This document shows, piece by piece, positions 6,423 through 58,186 of a stretch of 64,000 bases of DNA. Below the pieces are notes generated by a model, which made no database searches, was not told the origin of the DNA, and was given only the letters and a program-made list of their open reading frames with translations. This DNA comes from an uncultured Lachnospiraceae bacterium (GTDB taxonomy: Bacteria > Bacillota > Clostridia > Lachnospirales > Lachnospiraceae). The stretch covers positions 1 to 64,000 of the forward strand of contig CACZBK010000008.1 of NCBI GenBank assembly GCA_902779395.1, in the 5' to 3' direction. Position 1 is the stretch's first letter. Each line of letters starts with the position of its first letter. The position numbers were made by a program, and so were the translations under genes.

Positions 6423-7364
6423 TTATGTTCCTGTCGGTATCCTGGCCTTAAGTATCAGTTCCTTCAGTATACGATCCGTGTCCTCTTTACGTATCTTTGC
6501 CTCCGGAGTCAGACTGAGGCGGTGATGGAGCACATTTACAGCTACCGCTTTCACATCATCCGGCTTAACAAATTCTCTTTCATTTATATAGGCATGGGCC
6601 TGCGATGAACGTATGAGCATCAGCATGGCTCTTGGACTGGCTCCGGTTACAAAACTGTTTTCTTCACGTGTAAGCCTTATGATATCCCTGATGTAACTGA
6701 TCACACCGTCGCTGACATGTACTTTTTTAACAGCTTCTTTCATATTAATGATATCTTCTGTTCCTAAAACACTTGCGGCATCATTTACGGTTTTACCCGC
6801 CAAAAAGTTTTTGGCCAGTCTTATTTCTTCCGTCTCATCGGGATAACCGATCGAAAGACGCATCATAAAACGATCCATCTGCGCTTCCGGCAGCGGATAT
6901 GTTCCCATAAATTCAACAGGATTCTGTGTTGCTATGACCATAAAGGGCTGCGGAAGCGGATATGTTTTTCCGTCTACACTGACCTGTCCTTCAGCCATTG
7001 CTTCAAGCAGACTTGCCTGAGTCCTCGGCGAAGTCCTGTTTATCTCATCAGCCAGTATTATCTGATGCATGATCGCTCCTTCACGATATGTAAATTCTCC
7101 TGTTTTCATGTTATATACGGAAGATCCGGTAACATCACCCGGCAGAGTATCAGGCGTAAACTGTATACGGCCAAAATCACAGTCGATCGATCTGGCAAGG
7201 ATACGGGCCAGCGTGGTCTTTCCTACCCCCGGCACATCCTCCATCAATACATGCCCGTCTGATAAGATACATATCAGAAGATCATCTATAATACTCTCTT
7301 TACCGGCAAAATGCTCATGAAGATTATTTCTTAAACTGTTAAGCTTTTCAGCTGCCATATCCAT
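6423..7364 (-). CDS. MoxR-family AAA+ ATPase
   Basis: 313 residues with Walker A (EDVPGVGKTTLAR, about residues 42-54), Walker B (IILADEINR), sensor 1 (ATQNP) and an arginine-finger region (RFMMRLSIGYPD). MoxR ATPases act as chaperones that insert cofactors or activate vWA/DUF58 partner proteins. The AAGGAG site 5 nt before ATG 7364 fixes the start. It is the fourth gene of the run EAL fusion, DUF58, TgpA-like, MoxR. The more common order places MoxR first, so here it is at the distal end, after a 92-nt gap that could hold its own promoter. Confidence 0.92.
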   Translation of the reverse strand: MDMAAEKLNSLRNNLHEHFAGKESIIDDLLICILSDGHVLMEDVPGVGKTTLARILARSIDCDFGRIQFTPDTLPGDVTGSSVYNMKTGEFTYREGAIMHQIILADEINRTSPRTQASLLEAMAEGQVSVDGKTYPLPQPFMVIATQNPVEFMGTYPLPEAQMDRFMMRLSIGYPDETEEIRLAKNFLAGKTVNDAASVLGTEDIINMKEAVKKVHVSDGVISYIRDIIRLTREENSFVTGASPRAMLMLIRSSQAHAYINEREFVKPDDVKAVAVNVLHHRLSLTPEAKIRKEDTDRILKELILKARIPTGT

Positions 7365-7456
7365 TTATTCTCCTTCCGAATTATTACGGTAAACGAAAAA
7401 CTCTTTCCGTTTGTCATTTATTACGCTAACCGGCAGATGCGCCCGTCATAACAGTA

Positions 7457-9730
7457 TCATATCATATACTTCAGCTTTATAAATAAAGTCCTTACATAGC
7501 CTTTATACCATCTGATCATTAAAAACAGTTCATCTATGTTATTTAATATACCGTTAAGTTCCTCATCATTTACCGTTTTACCGGAGTATAATATAGTTTC
7601 ATATCTGCTTATAAAATCCAGACACTCAGCAGGATCTGTTTTTTCTCCGTCCGCATCATTTTCCGGATATTCATATTCATGATCATCAGGATCAAACAGC
7701 TGATCTTTTGCACGTATCCCGAATTCTTCAAGCGTTTCTCCCCGGGCAGGTACAAGTCCGAAAACTGACAAAAGCCTTAAGCCATATCTGCAGTATACTG
7801 CGGCTTTTTCATTCGGCGCCATCCTCTCAAGTCTTCTTTTGCGCAGGATCCTGTCTGTCAGTATAAACACAAACATAAAGACCGCAACAAGTACCGCAGA
7901 TAATATGACCGCATGCCAGTTGATATTTAATCTCTCTTCTTCATCCAGTTCAGGCAGTATAACAGCTTCATCTTCTTCATTCGCGTGCGGATCGGCCGTT
8001 CCCACTCCTTCTTCCATATCTTCTGCCCTCTTCATAAAAGGCCAGCTGAGATCATATTTTATACCGGGTGTAGGTTCGAAGCTTATCCAGCCGACATTAT
8101 CAATATATACCTCCGGCCATGCGTGTGCCATAGAGCTCATTACAGGGTAAGGCTGACGTCCGTTAAGCGGTACCAGAAAGCCCTGTACAAATCTGGCGGG
8201 ATACCCAAGACTACGCGCCATTAGAACAAACGCAGTAGCATAATGTGTGCAATACCCTTCCTGTGTTTCAAATAAAAGACGGTCTAAAAACGCAGCGGGG
8301 CTGTCTGTTTTTTCCGGGAGTTCTCCCGGGTTCAAAGTATATCGCATGGATGACAAAGCTTTTTCGATACGCTTTAGTACTTCCATATCATCTTCGGCAC
8401 CCTCGGACAGTTCAGATATATATTCTGCCGCACGATCTGATATCTGTGTCTGCGGAAGGTAATACTCATGCATCCTTTTAACATATTCACGGTACCGGGA
8501 GTAAGATATGACGGGCGGTCCGACATTTTTAAAGGCAGCCTGTGTATTCATCCAGTTTTCCTCATCGATCGCTGCAGCATTATCATACAATACGTCAAAC
8601 GACGGATTGGTACTATTGATCCTGATATATGTCAGGTCATATTCTGTATGGTAACCAAGACGTTTAATACTCTTTAACTCTCCTCCCTGCGCTACGATAC
8701 CCTCCTTTTCATCATGCAGAGTGATCCCAAGCGTCTTTTGCGGTACAAAATAATAAGCGGTATTAAATTCATCATAAGTAACCGTAAGCTGAACACGCTT
8801 ATAAAAATCGATGGCATGTGTCCTGTCATAGGTAAGGATTGCCGTGAGCGTTTCAAGCGAGTCTACTGTTTTATCCGGATTTTCCTCTTCATAGATGCTG
8901 TTCCATGTTCTGCCGTCGAAACTGTCAAGTATACGGCCCGCAAGATAAACAACCCGTCCCGCATCGCGTGAAGTTCCAAGGCGCATGACACACTTATCAT
9001 CAACACTCAGATTGCCGAAATATGTTCCTTTATCCTTAAATCCCATCGTACCGGCATATTCTTCCTTATCAGCATTAAGCAGCCGGTTTCCGTATTTGAT
9101 ACTGTCAGATATCCTTTGCATTATGACTTTTACAAAATGCCAGTCATATGCCTTATCCGGCGCCGGAATAAAATATACGGCGGCTGTCAGCAAAAGCACA
9201 AAAGGCGCGATCGAAACAAGATGTCCTCTCCTGTTTTCACCGCCGCTTTTCTTCCAGTAAAGCTGGACTTTATCCGTTATGATCAGCACGATCATCATCA
9301 GTGCCAGAGCAGCTTCAAGCTTATCCGGCACCGGTCCCCTGATCATCGTATATATCAGTCCAAACGTGATCATCACCGCAGCAACGAGTTTAAGGAGTTC
9401 CTTTTGTGATATCAGTCTGCCGGCTGCATATGAAGCCGTTACTATCAGCAGAGTCCATAAACACCAGATATTATCAAAGACAAATCCAAGCAGAGTTCCT
9501 CTCTCCTGCATCAGAAGGATACCGGTGAGAAGCATCAGGCTTATACCCGGCAGCAGAAATCTCAGTCTTCCGCGTATATGCTTTACGGAAAAACAGCAGG
9601 CAAGTATCAGCAGCGCAGCTATATAATAAACAGCTTTCTTTTCCGGAAGCTGCAAAAAGCCCGCTGACACACTAACGGCCAATGCCGCTATAGGAAATAT
9701 ATATATAAGATCATATAAAAAACCGATCAT
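7457..9730 (-). CDS. TgpA-like membrane protein with transglutaminase domain and DUF4129-type tail
   Basis: 757 residues. The first 190 hold six or so membrane helices; a periplasmic-side domain follows. The transglutaminase core has EGYCTHYATAFV with Cys about 494 and MSSMAHAWPEVYID with His about 536. A FEPTPG motif follows where many relatives have DPT, so the third catalytic residue may be Glu or lie elsewhere. One more membrane helix (about residues 620-642) precedes a cytosolic tail resembling DUF4129. Start ATG 9730 overlaps the DUF58 stop by 4 nt (ATGA), implying translational coupling. TgpA-type proteins accompany MoxR/DUF58 genes; their substrates are mostly unknown but the active site faces the cell exterior. 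Confidence 0.88.
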   Translation of the reverse strand: MIGFLYDLIYIFPIAALAVSVSAGFLQLPEKKAVYYIAALLILACCFSVKHIRGRLRFLLPGISLMLLTGILLMQERGTLLGFVFDNIWCLWTLLIVTASYAAGRLISQKELLKLVAAVMITFGLIYTMIRGPVPDKLEAALALMMIVLIITDKVQLYWKKSGGENRRGHLVSIAPFVLLLTAAVYFIPAPDKAYDWHFVKVIMQRISDSIKYGNRLLNADKEEYAGTMGFKDKGTYFGNLSVDDKCVMRLGTSRDAGRVVYLAGRILDSFDGRTWNSIYEEENPDKTVDSLETLTAILTYDRTHAIDFYKRVQLTVTYDEFNTAYYFVPQKTLGITLHDEKEGIVAQGGELKSIKRLGYHTEYDLTYIRINSTNPSFDVLYDNAAAIDEENWMNTQAAFKNVGPPVISYSRYREYVKRMHEYYLPQTQISDRAAEYISELSEGAEDDMEVLKRIEKALSSMRYTLNPGELPEKTDSPAAFLDRLLFETQEGYCTHYATAFVLMARSLGYPARFVQGFLVPLNGRQPYPVMSSMAHAWPEVYIDNVGWISFEPTPGIKYDLSWPFMKRAEDMEEGVGTADPHANEEDEAVILPELDEEERLNINWHAVILSAVLVAVFMFVFILTDRILRKRRLERMAPNEKAAVYCRYGLRLLSVFGLVPARGETLEEFGIRAKDQLFDPDDHEYEYPENDADGEKTDPAECLDFISRYETILYSGKTVNDEELNGILNNIDELFLMIRWYKGYVRTLFIKLKYMI

Positions 9731-10893
9731 ATCCCTGCGCTCGCCAGCTCCTGTTCAACACCTATATATTTCATGACAAATCCGGGGATCCCTGTATTAC
9801 CCTCATGATCTTTAACCTCATTATCAATAATGCAGGCCAGTGTAAAAACATTATTATCCCTTAAGCTATGCACAAATTCTTCTGCAGCCGCACTCCATTC
9901 ATGAAGGACCAGAAAGACACTCTTACAGCTGTAAACCTCTTTATGCCGGGAGCACAGAGTCAAAAGCTTATCTTCATCCGAATCCGTTCTGAATATCATT
10001 CCCGAAGCACGTTCATAAAACAAATCAAAATCGTCAAGCGAACGAACATTATTTTCACGAAGCTCACCATCAAGATATAAACTGCTTACAGATATATTCT
10101 CAGATGCAAAATAATAAGCTAATGCTATAGTAAGTTCCAGGATCTTATTTTCCAGCGGAAGATATACCGACATATCCCCGTCTATCCTTTTAGTGCCATT
10201 GATCACACACACACCTTCCCGTTCACGGGCGATCATTTTTCTGACAAGCAGCTCCCCGCTTCTGGCACTCGCCTTCCAGTTTATCATACGCACATCATCA
10301 CCGTCCGAGTATTTCCGGACTTCTATATCCGGCTCCGTAGGGTTTACGAATGCATTCCTGAACATAGTCTGCGAAAGATCCATACTTTTTATCTCTTCCA
10401 GTTTTATCAGATCAGGTTTAACCGCTACACGCAGGGTTTCCTTGTTATTATATCTGAATCTGAACAGACGGAGGAAATCGGTGATCTCCACCGTCTTTAT
10501 CCCGACTTCATATTCTCCGCGATACCGGCATATCAGCTGTGTATCTTTTTTTATGCCGCTATGGGGCAGCAGCTCATATTCGGTATCATCATCCAGAGAA
10601 CTTATCTTGGAATATGAAGAAAAGAAATGCACCTTAATACTGCAGAAACCGAAATGATATTCATTCATAAGTGTAAAATAAAACGGGACCGGCCGGCCAG
10701 CCACCAGATTTCTGCTGTCGATCTGCTGATAGATCCTGAAAAAAACAAAAACAGCCAGGAGATAAATAAACAAAATAAAAGGCAGGATAGTGAGCATCGT
10801 AAAAAAACCGTAACTCACTGCCCCGCCATAAAAACTTATCCCGACCAAAGAAAATATCCAGAGGATAAAATAGATCAGACGGTTACGTTTCAT
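9727..10893 (-). CDS. DUF58-domain protein
   Basis: 388 residues with two N-terminal membrane helices (about 8-25 and 30-50), then a beta-rich stretch. The DUF58 signature follows: VRKYSDGDDVRMINWKASAR with GELLVRK (about residues 193-220). The C-terminal part would adopt a vWA-like fold. DUF58 proteins are typical partners of MoxR ATPases and TgpA-like transglutaminases. It overlaps both neighbours by 4 nt (ATGA) and so is tightly coupled to the EAL fusion gene upstream and the transglutaminase downstream. Confidence 0.9.
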   Translation of the reverse strand: MKRNRLIYFILWIFSLVGISFYGGAVSYGFFTMLTILPFILFIYLLAVFVFFRIYQQIDSRNLVAGRPVPFYFTLMNEYHFGFCSIKVHFFSSYSKISSLDDDTEYELLPHSGIKKDTQLICRYRGEYEVGIKTVEITDFLRLFRFRYNNKETLRVAVKPDLIKLEEIKSMDLSQTMFRNAFVNPTEPDIEVRKYSDGDDVRMINWKASARSGELLVRKMIAREREGVCVINGTKRIDGDMSVYLPLENKILELTIALAYYFASENISVSSLYLDGELRENNVRSLDDFDLFYERASGMIFRTDSDEDKLLTLCSRHKEVYSCKSVFLVLHEWSAAAEEFVHSLRDNNVFTLACIIDNEVKDHEGNTGIPGFVMKYIGVEQELASAGI

Positions 10894-13800
10894 ACTTCGC
10901 CAAAGCTTTCTTTAACTCCGTTAACAGTATAATCCCCTCTGCATCCGGGATCTATAAGGATATTTTTTTCGCTATAAGTACATGCTCTTCCGCCCTCATT
11001 ACGAAGACGCACGGTGATCGCACAATCGATAGCCGTAAATCTTCCGTCTCCGACAAGACCGCCGTATGCATATGCTTCTATACCATTGCCGGTAAAATGA
11101 TAGGATATATTCTTGAAAGTCACATCCGAATCACCGAAGAAACATCCCGCACCACTCGCCCTGTTTGCCCGAAGATCAATATTACTGCCTATATCCTGCA
11201 GAAGCACTTTTGCCCGCCTTCCGTTTATACTGCCCGCAACAAGCATGGATTTGCCGCTTCCGAAGAAATGGATGAATACATTTTTAATCTTAACATCGGC
11301 ATCCGAATTAAACGATCCGACCCCGCACGCTTCATCACAGGCAAATGTAAGATCCATCTCACAATTGGTAATGGCTATCTTACAGTCTTTATCAAACGAT
11401 CCGTAAGCCAGGGCCTGTCCTCCGTTAAACTGAAGAACATATCTTCCCTGTGTGATCACTATATCGCAGGTACCTTTACCGCCTATACCTACACCTCTGT
11501 TTCCGAAGGCATCCATTATAATGGTACCTGTCTGGTAGAATTCTATCCTTCCTGCATCCCCGTTTGCACAGCCAATACCGCAATAATCGTTATTTTTTAT
11601 CTGGAAATTGAGATCTCCGTCACCTATAAGCGTAAGCGCAGATCCTTTGGGAACATTTATGCCCCCGCCGCTTAAGATATTCTCCCCGACAAGGAGAAGC
11701 GTCAGCTTAACTCCCGGTTCAAGATCGATAATAGGCGCATGTCTGGAACTGCCAAGATATACGTGTTCAAGCGTTATCTGTCCTTCATATCCCGACTTGA
11801 TCTCAAGCCTGAGATCCGTGCGCTGTCCGGGAGTACCGCTAAGCACAAAATCCCTGTATGTGGAAACATCACCTTTGGTAAGCAGTATATTATAACCTTC
11901 TTTGGTCAGTGCCGATGCCGCAAATCGCCCGGTCTTACCTGTTTCATAAATACGGCGGCCACTGCCCTGTATACGTTCCGTATAATATTTCCTGATCTCC
12001 TCGGAGATACGTTCCTCTATTTCTGACAGCACCTCCGGAGCAGGTCTGCCGGTATAATATCCCTGAATAAGATCGCATCCCAGGTTAATTACGGTTCGAA
12101 GCTCCTCTCCGGTTTCAACCCCCTCCGCAAGCACCTGGATCGAATTATCATGAGCGAATGTAACTATCTCCCTGACAAAGTGCTGCTTCTGCGGGCTGTC
12201 CTGAATCCCCGATAAAAGCGATCTGTCAACCTTGACATAATTGGGCATATACCGAAGAAGATTTGACACATTCGAATATCCGGTCCCGTAATCATCTACG
12301 GCTGTACCTATCCCAAGCCTTGCATAGCGCTGCTTCATCTTCTCAAGTTCATCATCCGCGACTTCCGCCCGTTCGGTAAGCTCGATCACGGCCTGTTCTC
12401 CTCTTCCCGAAAGCATCGCATCTATCTTCTTATAATCTTCCTCGGAAAGTTTTGTCCCCGGAATGCTGTTGATAAAGATATGCCTGCCCTCAAAAGCCTT
12501 TTCGTTAGCCTCCATCTGTCCGAGAACATTAAGAAATGTAGCCTTTTCCACATCGGAAAGCCGCTTTAAATGTGAAGCGTATTTTAAGATCTGAAGCGGC
12601 GATATCTTCATCTCGCTCCTGGCCCGCATCAAAGCTTCGAAAGCATAGATACTGCCGTCCACAGCACTGACTATTGGCTGATAGTAATAAGTAAGCCTGT
12701 TCTCATCAAGGATCCTGCCGACTTCGAGCATGCATTCCTCTTCTTCAGCAGAGAGTTTCTGCTCGGTCTTTACTTCCTTTTTGTCCTTATTGATCGCAGC
12801 CGTAAACAATATCGCCCTTCTTACATTCTCAAGTCCCCGGGCGACAGCCTGTATCCAGAGCCTGTAAACTTCATCATAGGAACGCGGTTCTTTCCCATAA
12901 TTGATAACCGCATAACCCAGGCAGTTTGATTCGTAAAATATCGGGGTAAATGTATAGGCGCGCGGTGAATCATGATATTCATCCAGTTCGGGATGAAGGA
13001 TCGAAGTATCAAATCCTTCATGAAGACTTATCTTATCTTCTGTCTTCTCATCCTTATAAACAGAAAGAGCCTTTAACATACGATCGGTATAACCATGATC
13101 CAGCAGTCTTCCCTGTGTCAGATAATCGGGAGTCATCCACTGATCGCACAGGCAGAGATGAAAAGATTCAAAACCTTTTACCTGATAGATATGTTCGTAT
13201 ATACAATCCAGAGCGCCCTGAAGATCAAACTGTCTCATAAGATCTTCCTGCATCGTATTATGAAGCGAGAAAAAGCCGTCTTCCGATAACTCCGTCTCCC
13301 ATTTTTCTCTCAGCTTCGGACGGAATGACATTTTATAAGAACTGCATCCGCAGCTCATACCGGTATAAATTTCCACCTCGGTATCCGGATCTTTGATATC
13401 CTTTCCTTCCATCAGACGCTTGATACTCTTTGCCGCATGACTGCCTGTTGATGCAGCCGGAATATATGCGGAAGTAATGGGACACGGTGATAACCTTCCT
13501 TCTTCCACACTGTCAAAGCCCACTACCGCAACATCCTCGGGAACTCTTACTCCGTTTTCCGTCAGTACACGGCATACGCCTATTGCCATCTGATCATTAG
13601 CACAGGCGATCGCACGCGGCATATCATCCCTGTTTTTAAGCAGTTCTTCGGAATATGCTCCGCCACTGGTATACCAGAAATCTCCGTATTTGATACGGTC
13701 ATCCCTGATCTGAAGACCATGCGCGATCATCGAATCCTTATATGCATTCAGTCTCTGCTTAGAGTGTGCATGCCATTTTTTACCTGTCAGATAAGCTATA

Positions 13801-14204
13801 TCCTTATAACCATGATCTTCTATAAGATGATCGATAAGTTTACGCACCGGTGTATAACTGTCTGTCCAGATAGAACGGAAATGCTTGCTCTCAAGATCCA
13901 CAACCAGGACCGGTCCGGAAAATCTGTTCTTGATCTCATCCTCCAGAGCATCTGCCACCCCGGGTGTCTGAATTGTATCAAGAAGTACCACAACCGCGTC
14001 AAAAAGGCTGTAGTTAACAAGATTAAAGATGTTCGAATCACCGATCTCACGTGCTACGGTATCCTGATACTTTATATACATGGAAAAAATACAGACATCC
14101 ATATCATCCGAAAATGCCTGTTTCAGGAAGCCTTTCGCAAAGCGCTCCTGATAGAACTCATCAGCCTGCCCCATCAAAAGAGCTATTCTCTTTCGTCGTA
14201 TCAT
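10890..14204 (-). CDS. Three-part protein: LacI/periplasmic-binding-like sensor, EAL phosphodiesterase, beta-helix-like tail
   Basis: 1104 residues, no signal peptide or membrane segment, so predicted cytosolic. Residues 1-290 resemble the sugar-sensing domain of LacI-type regulators (IACANDQMAIGV, VPEDVAVVGFDSVE), but there is no HTH before it. Residues about 300-480 are a linker or GAF-like region. The EAL domain (about 500-735) is complete: FEALMRA, FINSIPGT, ELTERAEV, VDDYGTGYSN, YVKVDRSLL, LAEGVET. So c-di-GMP hydrolysis is expected. Residues about 760-1104 are Gly/Asn/Asp-rich repeating strands (SALTLIGDGDLNFQIKN, GNRGVGIGGKGTC) typical of a right-handed beta-helix or carbohydrate-binding fold, odd for a cytosolic protein. 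GGAGGG 8 nt before ATG 14204 sets the start. Its stop overlaps the DUF58 start. Confidence 0.9.
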   Translation of the reverse strand: MIRRKRIALLMGQADEFYQERFAKGFLKQAFSDDMDVCIFSMYIKYQDTVAREIGDSNIFNLVNYSLFDAVVVLLDTIQTPGVADALEDEIKNRFSGPVLVVDLESKHFRSIWTDSYTPVRKLIDHLIEDHGYKDIAYLTGKKWHAHSKQRLNAYKDSMIAHGLQIRDDRIKYGDFWYTSGGAYSEELLKNRDDMPRAIACANDQMAIGVCRVLTENGVRVPEDVAVVGFDSVEEGRLSPCPITSAYIPAASTGSHAAKSIKRLMEGKDIKDPDTEVEIYTGMSCGCSSYKMSFRPKLREKWETELSEDGFFSLHNTMQEDLMRQFDLQGALDCIYEHIYQVKGFESFHLCLCDQWMTPDYLTQGRLLDHGYTDRMLKALSVYKDEKTEDKISLHEGFDTSILHPELDEYHDSPRAYTFTPIFYESNCLGYAVINYGKEPRSYDEVYRLWIQAVARGLENVRRAILFTAAINKDKKEVKTEQKLSAEEEECMLEVGRILDENRLTYYYQPIVSAVDGSIYAFEALMRARSEMKISPLQILKYASHLKRLSDVEKATFLNVLGQMEANEKAFEGRHIFINSIPGTKLSEEDYKKIDAMLSGRGEQAVIELTERAEVADDELEKMKQRYARLGIGTAVDDYGTGYSNVSNLLRYMPNYVKVDRSLLSGIQDSPQKQHFVREIVTFAHDNSIQVLAEGVETGEELRTVINLGCDLIQGYYTGRPAPEVLSEIEERISEEIRKYYTERIQGSGRRIYETGKTGRFAASALTKEGYNILLTKGDVSTYRDFVLSGTPGQRTDLRLEIKSGYEGQITLEHVYLGSSRHAPIIDLEPGVKLTLLLVGENILSGGGINVPKGSALTLIGDGDLNFQIKNNDYCGIGCANGDAGRIEFYQTGTIIMDAFGNRGVGIGGKGTCDIVITQGRYVLQFNGGQALAYGSFDKDCKIAITNCEMDLTFACDEACGVGSFNSDADVKIKNVFIHFFGSGKSMLVAGSINGRRAKVLLQDIGSNIDLRANRASGAGCFFGDSDVTFKNISYHFTGNGIEAYAYGGLVGDGRFTAIDCAITVRLRNEGGRACTYSEKNILIDPGCRGDYTVNGVKESFGEV

Positions 14205-14244
14205 TGAACACGCCCTCCGATGCCTATATACATACAGATAGTTT

Positions 14245-57451: not shown

Positions 57452-58186
57452 TTAATCGGTTTTTCCGCTCATTCGTTTCAGCTTCTCTCTTTCCCATTCA
57501 AAGATAAATCGTACGAATTCTTCCCTGGCTTCCCTCTTCATATCAACAAATTGCATGCAGTGTTCGTAACGTCCTTTTTGATTATTAAGCAATCCGGTCC
57601 TGACCAGCTTTCCCAGGAAAATATAATTCTTCTTTCCGCCATCGGGGGTCTCCGCTACGAGATGAGTTATCACCATGGCCTGAGGCTGCATTTCGGTTCT
57701 GGTTGTAAAGCGTATACCGCCACCGCTTACATCCAGCGTGGTTCCTTCCTCAAAACCGGGCATGCGCAGCAGTGTACCGTTTTTCGTAGCTTCCCTGAAC
57801 TCGTTTGCATTTTCGGCGGTAAGGACAAGATATCGGACCGGTATAGAGGTTTCAAGCCGGAAAAATTCTCTGCGTTCATATTTCTGCAGGCTCCCTGTAA
57901 GCTTGATATCCACTACACGGATATTACCTTCGCTTCGGCTTTTGACCACCTCTATCGGCGCATTATATATCCTGCTCCCAAAGAAAAAGGCATTAAACCT
58001 CTCACCCGCATGAACAGGTATCAGACGGGCTTTTATCACAGGATTTGTAATGGTCAGATTCTCGCTGTCATCGATGTCATGTATGGCGCTGGCCATTTTC
58101 TTTTCCTGTGCTTCAGGATCATCCAGATTGTATTTACGCCCCACCAGCTCAAGCGGCATACCGGGCTTTAATACTTTTTCCGCCAT
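57452..58186 (-). CDS. YcgR-like PilZ c-di-GMP receptor
   Basis: 244 residues. The N-terminal half resembles the YcgR flagellar-brake fold. The PilZ domain starts at ERREFFRLE (RxxxR) and includes DVSGGGIRF (D/NxSxxG), the two loops that hold c-di-GMP. It therefore probably reads out c-di-GMP to affect motility or surface. GGGGAG precedes the ATG. It follows the aminotransferase gene by 15 nt. A flagellar system is not in this window. Confidence 0.88.
   Translation of the reverse strand: MAEKVLKPGMPLELVGRKYNLDDPEAQEKKMASAIHDIDDSENLTITNPVIKARLIPVHAGERFNAFFFGSRIYNAPIEVVKSRSEGNIRVVDIKLTGSLQKYERREFFRLETSIPVRYLVLTAENANEFREATKNGTLLRMPGFEEGTTLDVSGGGIRFTTRTEMQPQAMVITHLVAETPDGGKKNYIFLGKLVRTGLLNNQKGRYEHCMQFVDMKREAREEFVRFIFEWEREKLKRMSGKTD

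Follow-up and report, generated by a model that had tools for sequence, protein, structure and literature searches.

A LacI-type sensor, an EAL domain and a predicted beta-solenoid tail joined in one protein of an uncultured Lachnospiraceae bacterium

The first 64,000 nucleotides of contig CACZBK010000008.1 (assembly GCA_902779395.1), from an uncultured Lachnospiraceae bacterium, were analysed and are referred to here as the window. The minus strand of the window carries a gene for an 1104-residue protein in which a LacI-type sensor, a GAF-like domain, an EAL domain and a Gly-rich tail, predicted to fold as a beta-solenoid, follow one another; the family to which it belongs is called EAL-tail below. 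A first-pass annotation had proposed a single protein here without stating its strand, and the frame is indeed intact, with no split, frameshift or misplaced start. Conservation is counted throughout in an alignment of 55 full-length members, which holds 54 of the 69 loci described below (12 truncated loci and three of fewer than 1000 amino acids were dropped); the separate tail alignment holds 63 of the 69 tails. The features of the gene are as follows.

10893..14204, minus strand: EAL-tail coding sequence, 1104 amino acids, stop codon at 10890-10892; uninterrupted open reading frame with an N-terminus alignable across the family
14213..14218, minus strand: probable ribosome-binding site GGAGGG, read from the sequence
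13335..14204, minus strand: LacI-type periplasmic-binding-like sensor, residues 1-290, no helix-turn-helix (HTH) (Pfam, PDB sequence matches, LacI alignment, fold matches)
13344..13352, minus strand: Cys-Gly-Cys motif, residues 285-287, at the end of the sensor (C285 in 55/55 members, G286 in 54/55, C287 in 54/55)
12780..13253, minus strand: GAF/PAS-like domain and long exit helix, residues 318-475 (AlphaFold2 model; type judged by eye from secondary structure)
12030..12722, minus strand: EAL phosphodiesterase domain, residues 495-725, catalytic residues present (Pfam, alignment of 55, fold matches)
11820..12029, minus strand: helix and cap joining EAL to the predicted solenoid, residues 726-795 (AlphaFold2 model, alignment, relatives)
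11490..11819, minus strand: predicted first coils of the tail, residues 796-905 (AlphaFold2, alignment, homology to beta-helix domains of surface-type clostridial proteins)
11055..11489, minus strand: predicted regular 28-residue coils of the tail, residues 906-1050 (AlphaFold2 full-length and tail-only models, alignment, periodicity)
10893..11054, minus strand: predicted last coils and C-terminus, residues 1051-1104, least conserved (AlphaFold2, alignment)

The GGAGGG motif stands 8 bases upstream of the ATG and the N-terminus of the window protein can be aligned across the 55 full-length members, so the start codon is correctly assigned; an annotation error, frameshift or misplaced start was rejected on these grounds and on the intact frame. 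No 19-residue window with a mean Kyte-Doolittle value above 1.9 was found in the 69 open frames of the family, a crude measure applied to 60 frames with and nine without their N-terminus, and among relatives with other N-termini to L172 and L177 only. In the absence of any such stretch the family appears to be cytosolic, and a secreted or membrane protein was rejected.

The sensor matches Peripla_BP_3 in Pfam (residues 125-277, 6.5e-28), shares 29% identity with E. coli LacI across 183 aligned positions, and has AscG, LacI ancestors and CcpA as its closest solved relatives in a PDB sequence search; in the fold search, sensor and EAL domain both strongly resemble solved structures. As the first-pass annotation had proposed, the effector domain of LacI/GalR transcription factors is present and their N-terminal DNA-binding HTH is absent: Pfam lists no HTH in the window protein and the chain begins at the first strand of the sensor. 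R151, N203 and D231 align with R197, N246 and D274 of LacI, which we take to be sugar-contacting residues, and are kept in 55/55, 55/55 and 52/55 members respectively. The sensor and its sugar-site positions are therefore like those of the regulators AscG, CcpA and LacI, from which the window protein differs in lacking the HTH and in having a phosphodiesterase, not DNA binding, as its output. The retained LacI positions favour the earlier proposal of sugar sensing; the accompanying tie of the tail to sugar or polymer sensing fares less well, because the tail follows the EAL domain whatever the N-terminus and some members of the lineage have no tail.

It is possible, though not favoured, that the ligand is not a sugar at all, being for instance a nucleoside, an autoinducer or an amino acid, with the rest of the protein working as set out below; this proposal overlaps with the other readings. 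According to a review, periplasmic-binding-protein (PBP)-type domains bind many ligands, and PBP-clan and LacI-like domains are known in c-di-GMP (cyclic di-GMP) enzymes (PMC8846402). Further sensor residues are near-invariant, in keeping with such a ligand (W177 and Y178 in 55/55; H126, H131 and H145 in 54/55). Against it stand the three conserved LacI positions and the identity of the closest solved relatives. The Cys-Gly-Cys motif could have a structural, redox or metal-binding role; SCGC was also seen by eye in a LacI-like GGDEF protein encoded beside the family gene at locus L134.

Residues ~318-475 give no Pfam match above cut-off. The full-length AlphaFold2 model, built from the alignment of 55 members (mean predicted local distance difference test score, pLDDT, 87.6; predicted template modelling score, pTM, 0.59), has an extra alpha/beta domain there, GAF-like by eye, which the earlier annotation missed, as it did a second EAL-tail protein in the same genome. 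The EAL domain that follows matches Pfam at residues 499-721 (1.1e-51), and E523, N579, E608, E611, D637, D638, K658, E694, E697 and Q714 are each present in 55/55 members; these ten we take to map onto the catalytic and metal positions of RocR. The Asn motif reads FINSIPG in the alignment, and in this the domain differs from the phosphodiesterases named below. By these residues the domain looks catalytically competent, as expected from the first reading of its motifs. The fold and catalytic residues are those of the EAL phosphodiesterases (PF00563) MorA, MucR, BlrP1 and RocR, but we know of no beta-solenoid placed after the EAL domain in phosphodiesterases such as these.

Residues 760-1104 contain 15.1% Gly and 5.8% Asn, compared with 5.7-7.2% Gly and 2.7-3.8% Asn in residues 1-490 and 491-725; the tail is thus Gly-rich and mildly Asn-rich, as first described. 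A tail-only AlphaFold2 model built from 64 tails (mean pLDDT 91.9, pTM 0.86) consists of the helix and cap followed by regular beta coils of constant period, and in the full-length model the solenoid part (~785-1100) is likewise predicted as beta strands, with block pLDDT of ~84-97 up to residue 1100. Column profiles of the tail have a period of 28, the lag-28 score of 0.064 exceeding all 2000 permutations (maximum 0.054), and conserved glycines lie at 908, 935, 963, 991, 1020 and 1049 in the regular coils. The tail is accordingly predicted, in agreement with its earlier description as beta-helix-like, to be a beta-solenoid or beta-helix-type fold with 28-residue coils.

The tail has no Pfam match in the window protein, and five tails searched gave weak unrelated names only (best E 0.0059). 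Neither Beta_helix_3 (PF18889) nor bactofilin, MinC_C or FapA was listed for these sequences at E up to 10, in a search whose filters remove most matches above 0.1. A PDB sequence search with the tail alone returned only YfjZ, at E 0.05, and with a five-tail profile nothing. Among the best 50 Foldseek rows each from the PDB and from viral models, query TM-scores reach 0.36 and 0.38; the nearest matches, all weak, are polygalacturonases, alginate epimerases and tailspikes, with polygalacturonase-type beta-helices the best in the PDB (E 0.018-0.03). Trp is absent from the tail, the 55-member alignment shows neither an aromatic nor an acidic row that is conserved, and with no conserved catalytic row there either, a glycosidase-like enzyme was rejected. 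Origin from phages was also rejected, since the tail matches none of 50,697 phage records at E 0.01 and the viral structure library gives weak matches only, many of them to beta-helix proteins. The first-pass statement that the arrangement was not a known one is fair: no Pfam model names the tail, and among the matches listed in the open-access literature none describes a beta-helix tail on an EAL protein.

In the genomes of named species 69 EAL-tail loci were found, titled as Lachnospiraceae, strains of Ruminococcus albus and R. flavefaciens, Saccharofermentans, Mageeibacillus and unnamed Clostridia. At all 69 the EAL domain directly precedes the tail (as a remnant at the contig end in L120 and L167) and no stop codon lies inside the matched tail. 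Fifteen loci are titled with a ruminant organ and 16 more carry RUG labels, presumably denoting rumen, as counted by eye and with no enrichment claimed. The five-tail profile matches 33/35 genomes of the genus, the two without a match being 77% and 72% complete, and 36/397 of the family, where the match starts at the EAL end in 26 and is partial and elsewhere in the profile in 10. A single-protein search matches 4/295 genomes of the order, and a 64-tail profile 17/391 of the class (13 from the EAL end) and 4/398 of the phylum (three from the EAL end, all three already found). Of 107 family and genus rows, 12 have a stop codon within the stretch matched by the tail profile; in the four of these that were read (L035, L038, L064, L070) 371-377 residues follow the EAL domain, which marks the stop as the natural end.

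The tail follows one EAL lineage while the N-terminal domains change, the variants being LacI-GAF, LacI-GAF-GGDEF, GGDEF without LacI, and short forms (L172, L177). In 14/55 full-length members 180-186 residues, with GNGE or GSGE at the GGDEF place, lie between the GAF-like and EAL domains, and the GGDEF model matches both of those that were scanned (L159, L175); this part is missing from the remaining 41, which include the window protein. The window genome itself holds 33 matches to the protein, of which 21 cover the EAL region, with a tail in two of the 21 and none in the other 19. The second EAL-tail protein in this genome (L019:7675-10875, minus strand, contig C19) has a GGDEF domain with a GSDEF signature and no LacI match, and further genomes of the genus have similar rows. 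These bacteria also have proteins that join a LacI-like sensor to GGDEF, which are alike in placing a sensor before a c-di-GMP domain; they carry a synthesis domain, whereas the window protein carries EAL and the tail.

In a 72-row EAL tree, 19 of whose 23 tail-less rows come from the window genome, 49 tail-bearing rows lie on one side of a single branch (support 92/61; 0/500 shuffles as low). A genus-wide EAL-profile search gave 71 strong matches (at least 288 bits; the next 143), 62 of which, by eye, coincide with tail matches, leaving nine without a tail; two of 64 genus tail matches, in the same count, have no such EAL adjoining. The tail-less relatives (L231-L239, from genomes of the same genus; eight measured frames of 900-917 residues) terminate at about the equivalent of residues 743-751, eight ending 26-34 residues after the last EAL motif and the ninth 25 after the EAL envelope. 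In all nine the part before the EAL domain is 645-668 residues long, as in forms that bear GGDEF. L183, L186, L241 and L242 have a shorter tail, of 146-187 residues; L240, labelled as a half-tail in a second tree, merely runs off its contig end, and frameshifts in draft genomes may account for some of the other half-tails. That second tree, in which the bootstrap had not settled and the two outgroup rows have branch lengths of 10 and a worthless placement, intersperses tail-less and half-tail rows with full-tail ones, which suggests that the tail was lost repeatedly. The idea of an obligatory tail, or of a single clean tail-bearing clade, was dropped on this interspersion and on the nine tail-less EALs.

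Between the window gene and L118, dN/dS (the ratio of nonsynonymous to synonymous substitution rates) of three tail stretches is 0.055, 0.092 and 0.109, values that are rough with large dS; dS could not be computed in three of seven stretches and was saturated in the sensor. From this one pair, with its rough dS, the tail is under purifying selection, and on the sequence evidence as a whole it is an old, selected, non-obligatory part of the protein. The tail-less and shorter-tailed relatives might otherwise have spoken for an accidental read-through or recent fusion that left a functionless tail; the same architecture across families, a tail dN/dS of ~0.05-0.11 in the one pair and the 69/69 matched tails free of stops refute this, and it is given practically no credence.

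Relatives of the tail are found in proteins of another kind. The tail profile matches four of seven surface-type clostridial proteins, L200 three times (total E 2.3e-24) and L201, L020 and L202 at 1.6e-9 to 1.1e-4 for a set size of 10,000, the aligned part being mostly tail residues ~785-937; none of 147 reversed or locally shuffled controls was matched. L047, L049 and L203 gave no match in this seven-protein test, though tail profiles had found them in whole-genome searches. To judge from these matches, the first half of the tail and the beta-helix domains of surface-type clostridial proteins are homologous. Those domains have GIGGG repeats and in some cases PF18889; the tail differs in having no PF18889 match and distal coils of its own. 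For Beta_helix_3, L201 scores above the cut-off and L200 and L048 score under it. Segments resembling signal peptides (by eye) open L202 and L020; InlB-type repeats are present in L020 and an Ig-like domain in L049. The protein of L200 (L200:1-3474, minus strand) has at least three copies of the beta-helix domain homologous to the first half of the tail.

Around the window gene, the region 6423-10893 on the minus strand holds in a row, downstream of it, a MoxR-like ATPase and a transglutaminase-like membrane protein, both named by eye, and a DUF58 gene, confirmed by Pfam:

9727..10893, minus strand: DUF58 gene (Pfam), context, outside the EAL-tail family

The EAL-tail stop codon and the DUF58 start overlap in the sequence ATGA. 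L118 and L120, both close relatives, have a similar gene whose first base is the last of the stop codon; in L121, the next relative, the gene downstream is a different one. A conserved operon partner was rejected, as neighbours, judged mostly from sequence starts, vary between clades. At six of the 69 loci (L131, L134, L135, L140, L149, L152) a similar-starting gene of 641-653 residues with a GGDEF motif lies 16-50 bases downstream; that of L134 (16 bases) is a LacI-like GGDEF protein by Pfam. In Ruminococcus albus KH2T6 the next gene downstream of the family gene encodes a FIST-EAL protein (L136:7268-9868, plus strand), and after it comes a LacI-like protein that matches neither GGDEF nor EAL. 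By these assignments EAL-tail genes adjoin other c-di-GMP genes in some clades. The window genome (3.58 Mb) has 55 GGDEF matches (54 over cut-off; some proteins are counted twice), three PilZ and one MshEN, which, by domain matches, amounts to a large c-di-GMP network, and 11 of its frames, of 633-665 residues, match both the LacI-type sensor and GGDEF. One of the three PilZ matches is a YcgR-like protein in the window (57452-58186, minus strand; PilZNR and PilZ in Pfam), a possible c-di-GMP receptor. Type IV pili have been proposed to take part in cellulose binding by R. albus and R. flavefaciens (PMC3672088); any link from the EAL-tail protein to type IV pili or flagella, or to fibre attachment, is speculative.

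A GH10 xylanase gene (L184:27-953, plus strand; Pfam 1.3e-30) ends 7 bases before the family gene, and a similar GH10 fragment was seen by eye before the gene in L161. These genes speak for the proposal that the tail recruits the enzyme to a polysaccharide by binding it, be it glycogen inside the cell or an envelope polymer under synthesis, as do the weak Foldseek likeness to polygalacturonases, alginate epimerases and tailspikes and the location of the tail's relatives in surface-type proteins. This is nevertheless considered distinctly improbable: the tail has no Trp, no conserved aromatic or acidic row and no significant fold match, and GH10 was recognised beside only two of 69 loci, most neighbours being known by their sequence starts. 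The first-pass suggestion of a tail that binds a polymer or an assembly partner is thus better borne by its second half.

Inheritance with the EAL domain and not with the sensor, regular predicted coils, the lack of Trp and of a catalytic or aromatic row, and low distal conservation point to a structural role for the tail in assembly or positioning. Bactofilin, the MinC C-domain and FapA are soluble intracellular beta-helix scaffolds and offer a working analogy only, with no shared sequence shown and no Pfam match listed. Strongly conserved non-glycine tail positions (R760, Y806 and E813 in 55/55, D785 in 54/55) belong to the cap and the first coil, the parts closest in sequence to the EAL domain. 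They are an argument for an unlikely alternative, in which the tail is an intramolecular regulator that packs on the EAL domain, restraining or propping its active site, and activity is set jointly by sensor and tail. The GGDEF-form-sized N-terminal part of the nine tail-less members fits this too, as another domain may there substitute for the tail. Interdomain placement in the model is unreliable, however (pTM 0.59), the distal coils, under purifying selection in one pair, are probably too far away to touch the EAL domain by simple packing, and the length correlation rests on few independent lineages.

On the reading favoured here, with confidence about evenly balanced, the protein is a soluble phosphodiesterase of the cytosol that acts on c-di-GMP and is gated by a sugar-like ligand, and its tail is a rigid module for assembly or positioning. 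The LacI-type domain would close on a small ligand, most probably a sugar or a catabolite resembling one; the GAF-like domain and its long helix would relay the change to the EAL domain, presumably in a dimer; c-di-GMP would be cleaved by the EAL domain; and the C-terminal beta-solenoid would act as a rigid non-catalytic module that fixes assembly state or cell position. The computations show the domains, the intact active-site residues, a predicted solenoid, conservation across the family and the first-half homology; the cytosolic location, the ligand class, the direction of regulation and, above all, the role of the tail are inferred. Several observations weigh against this reading. The pTM of 0.59 leaves the domain arrangement uncertain, the Foldseek matches of the tail are not significant (best E 0.018 in the PDB, 0.0036 in viral models) and its kinship to known scaffold solenoids is unproven. 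Pairwise identity in the distal tail is low (mean 0.33 at 906-1050, 0.26 at 1051-1104) with no binding face evident. The nine tail-less EALs make the tail dispensable in some relatives, and the tail is shortened in others; some members carry a degenerate GGDEF and may signal differently, and a link to polysaccharides gains slightly from the GH10 genes next to L184 and apparently L161.

A bolder and rather unlikely extension of the favoured reading is that one EAL lineage took a surface-type beta-helix into the cell, where it is now a polymerising or docking scaffold, c-di-GMP being destroyed at one set location or within a filament of the enzyme, with the sugar sensor controlling the filament's length or state. 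If this were true, the shorter-tailed and tail-less relatives would be natural variants of the same device. Members of the EAL-tail family turn up repeatedly in Clostridia of the rumen and gut, among them the cellulose degraders Ruminococcus albus and R. flavefaciens, in which c-di-GMP signalling seems to be little studied. The family joins an EAL enzyme domain to an apparently intracellular relative of surface beta-helices, a tail that Pfam does not name, and the natural shorter-tailed and tail-less versions make the role of that tail directly testable.

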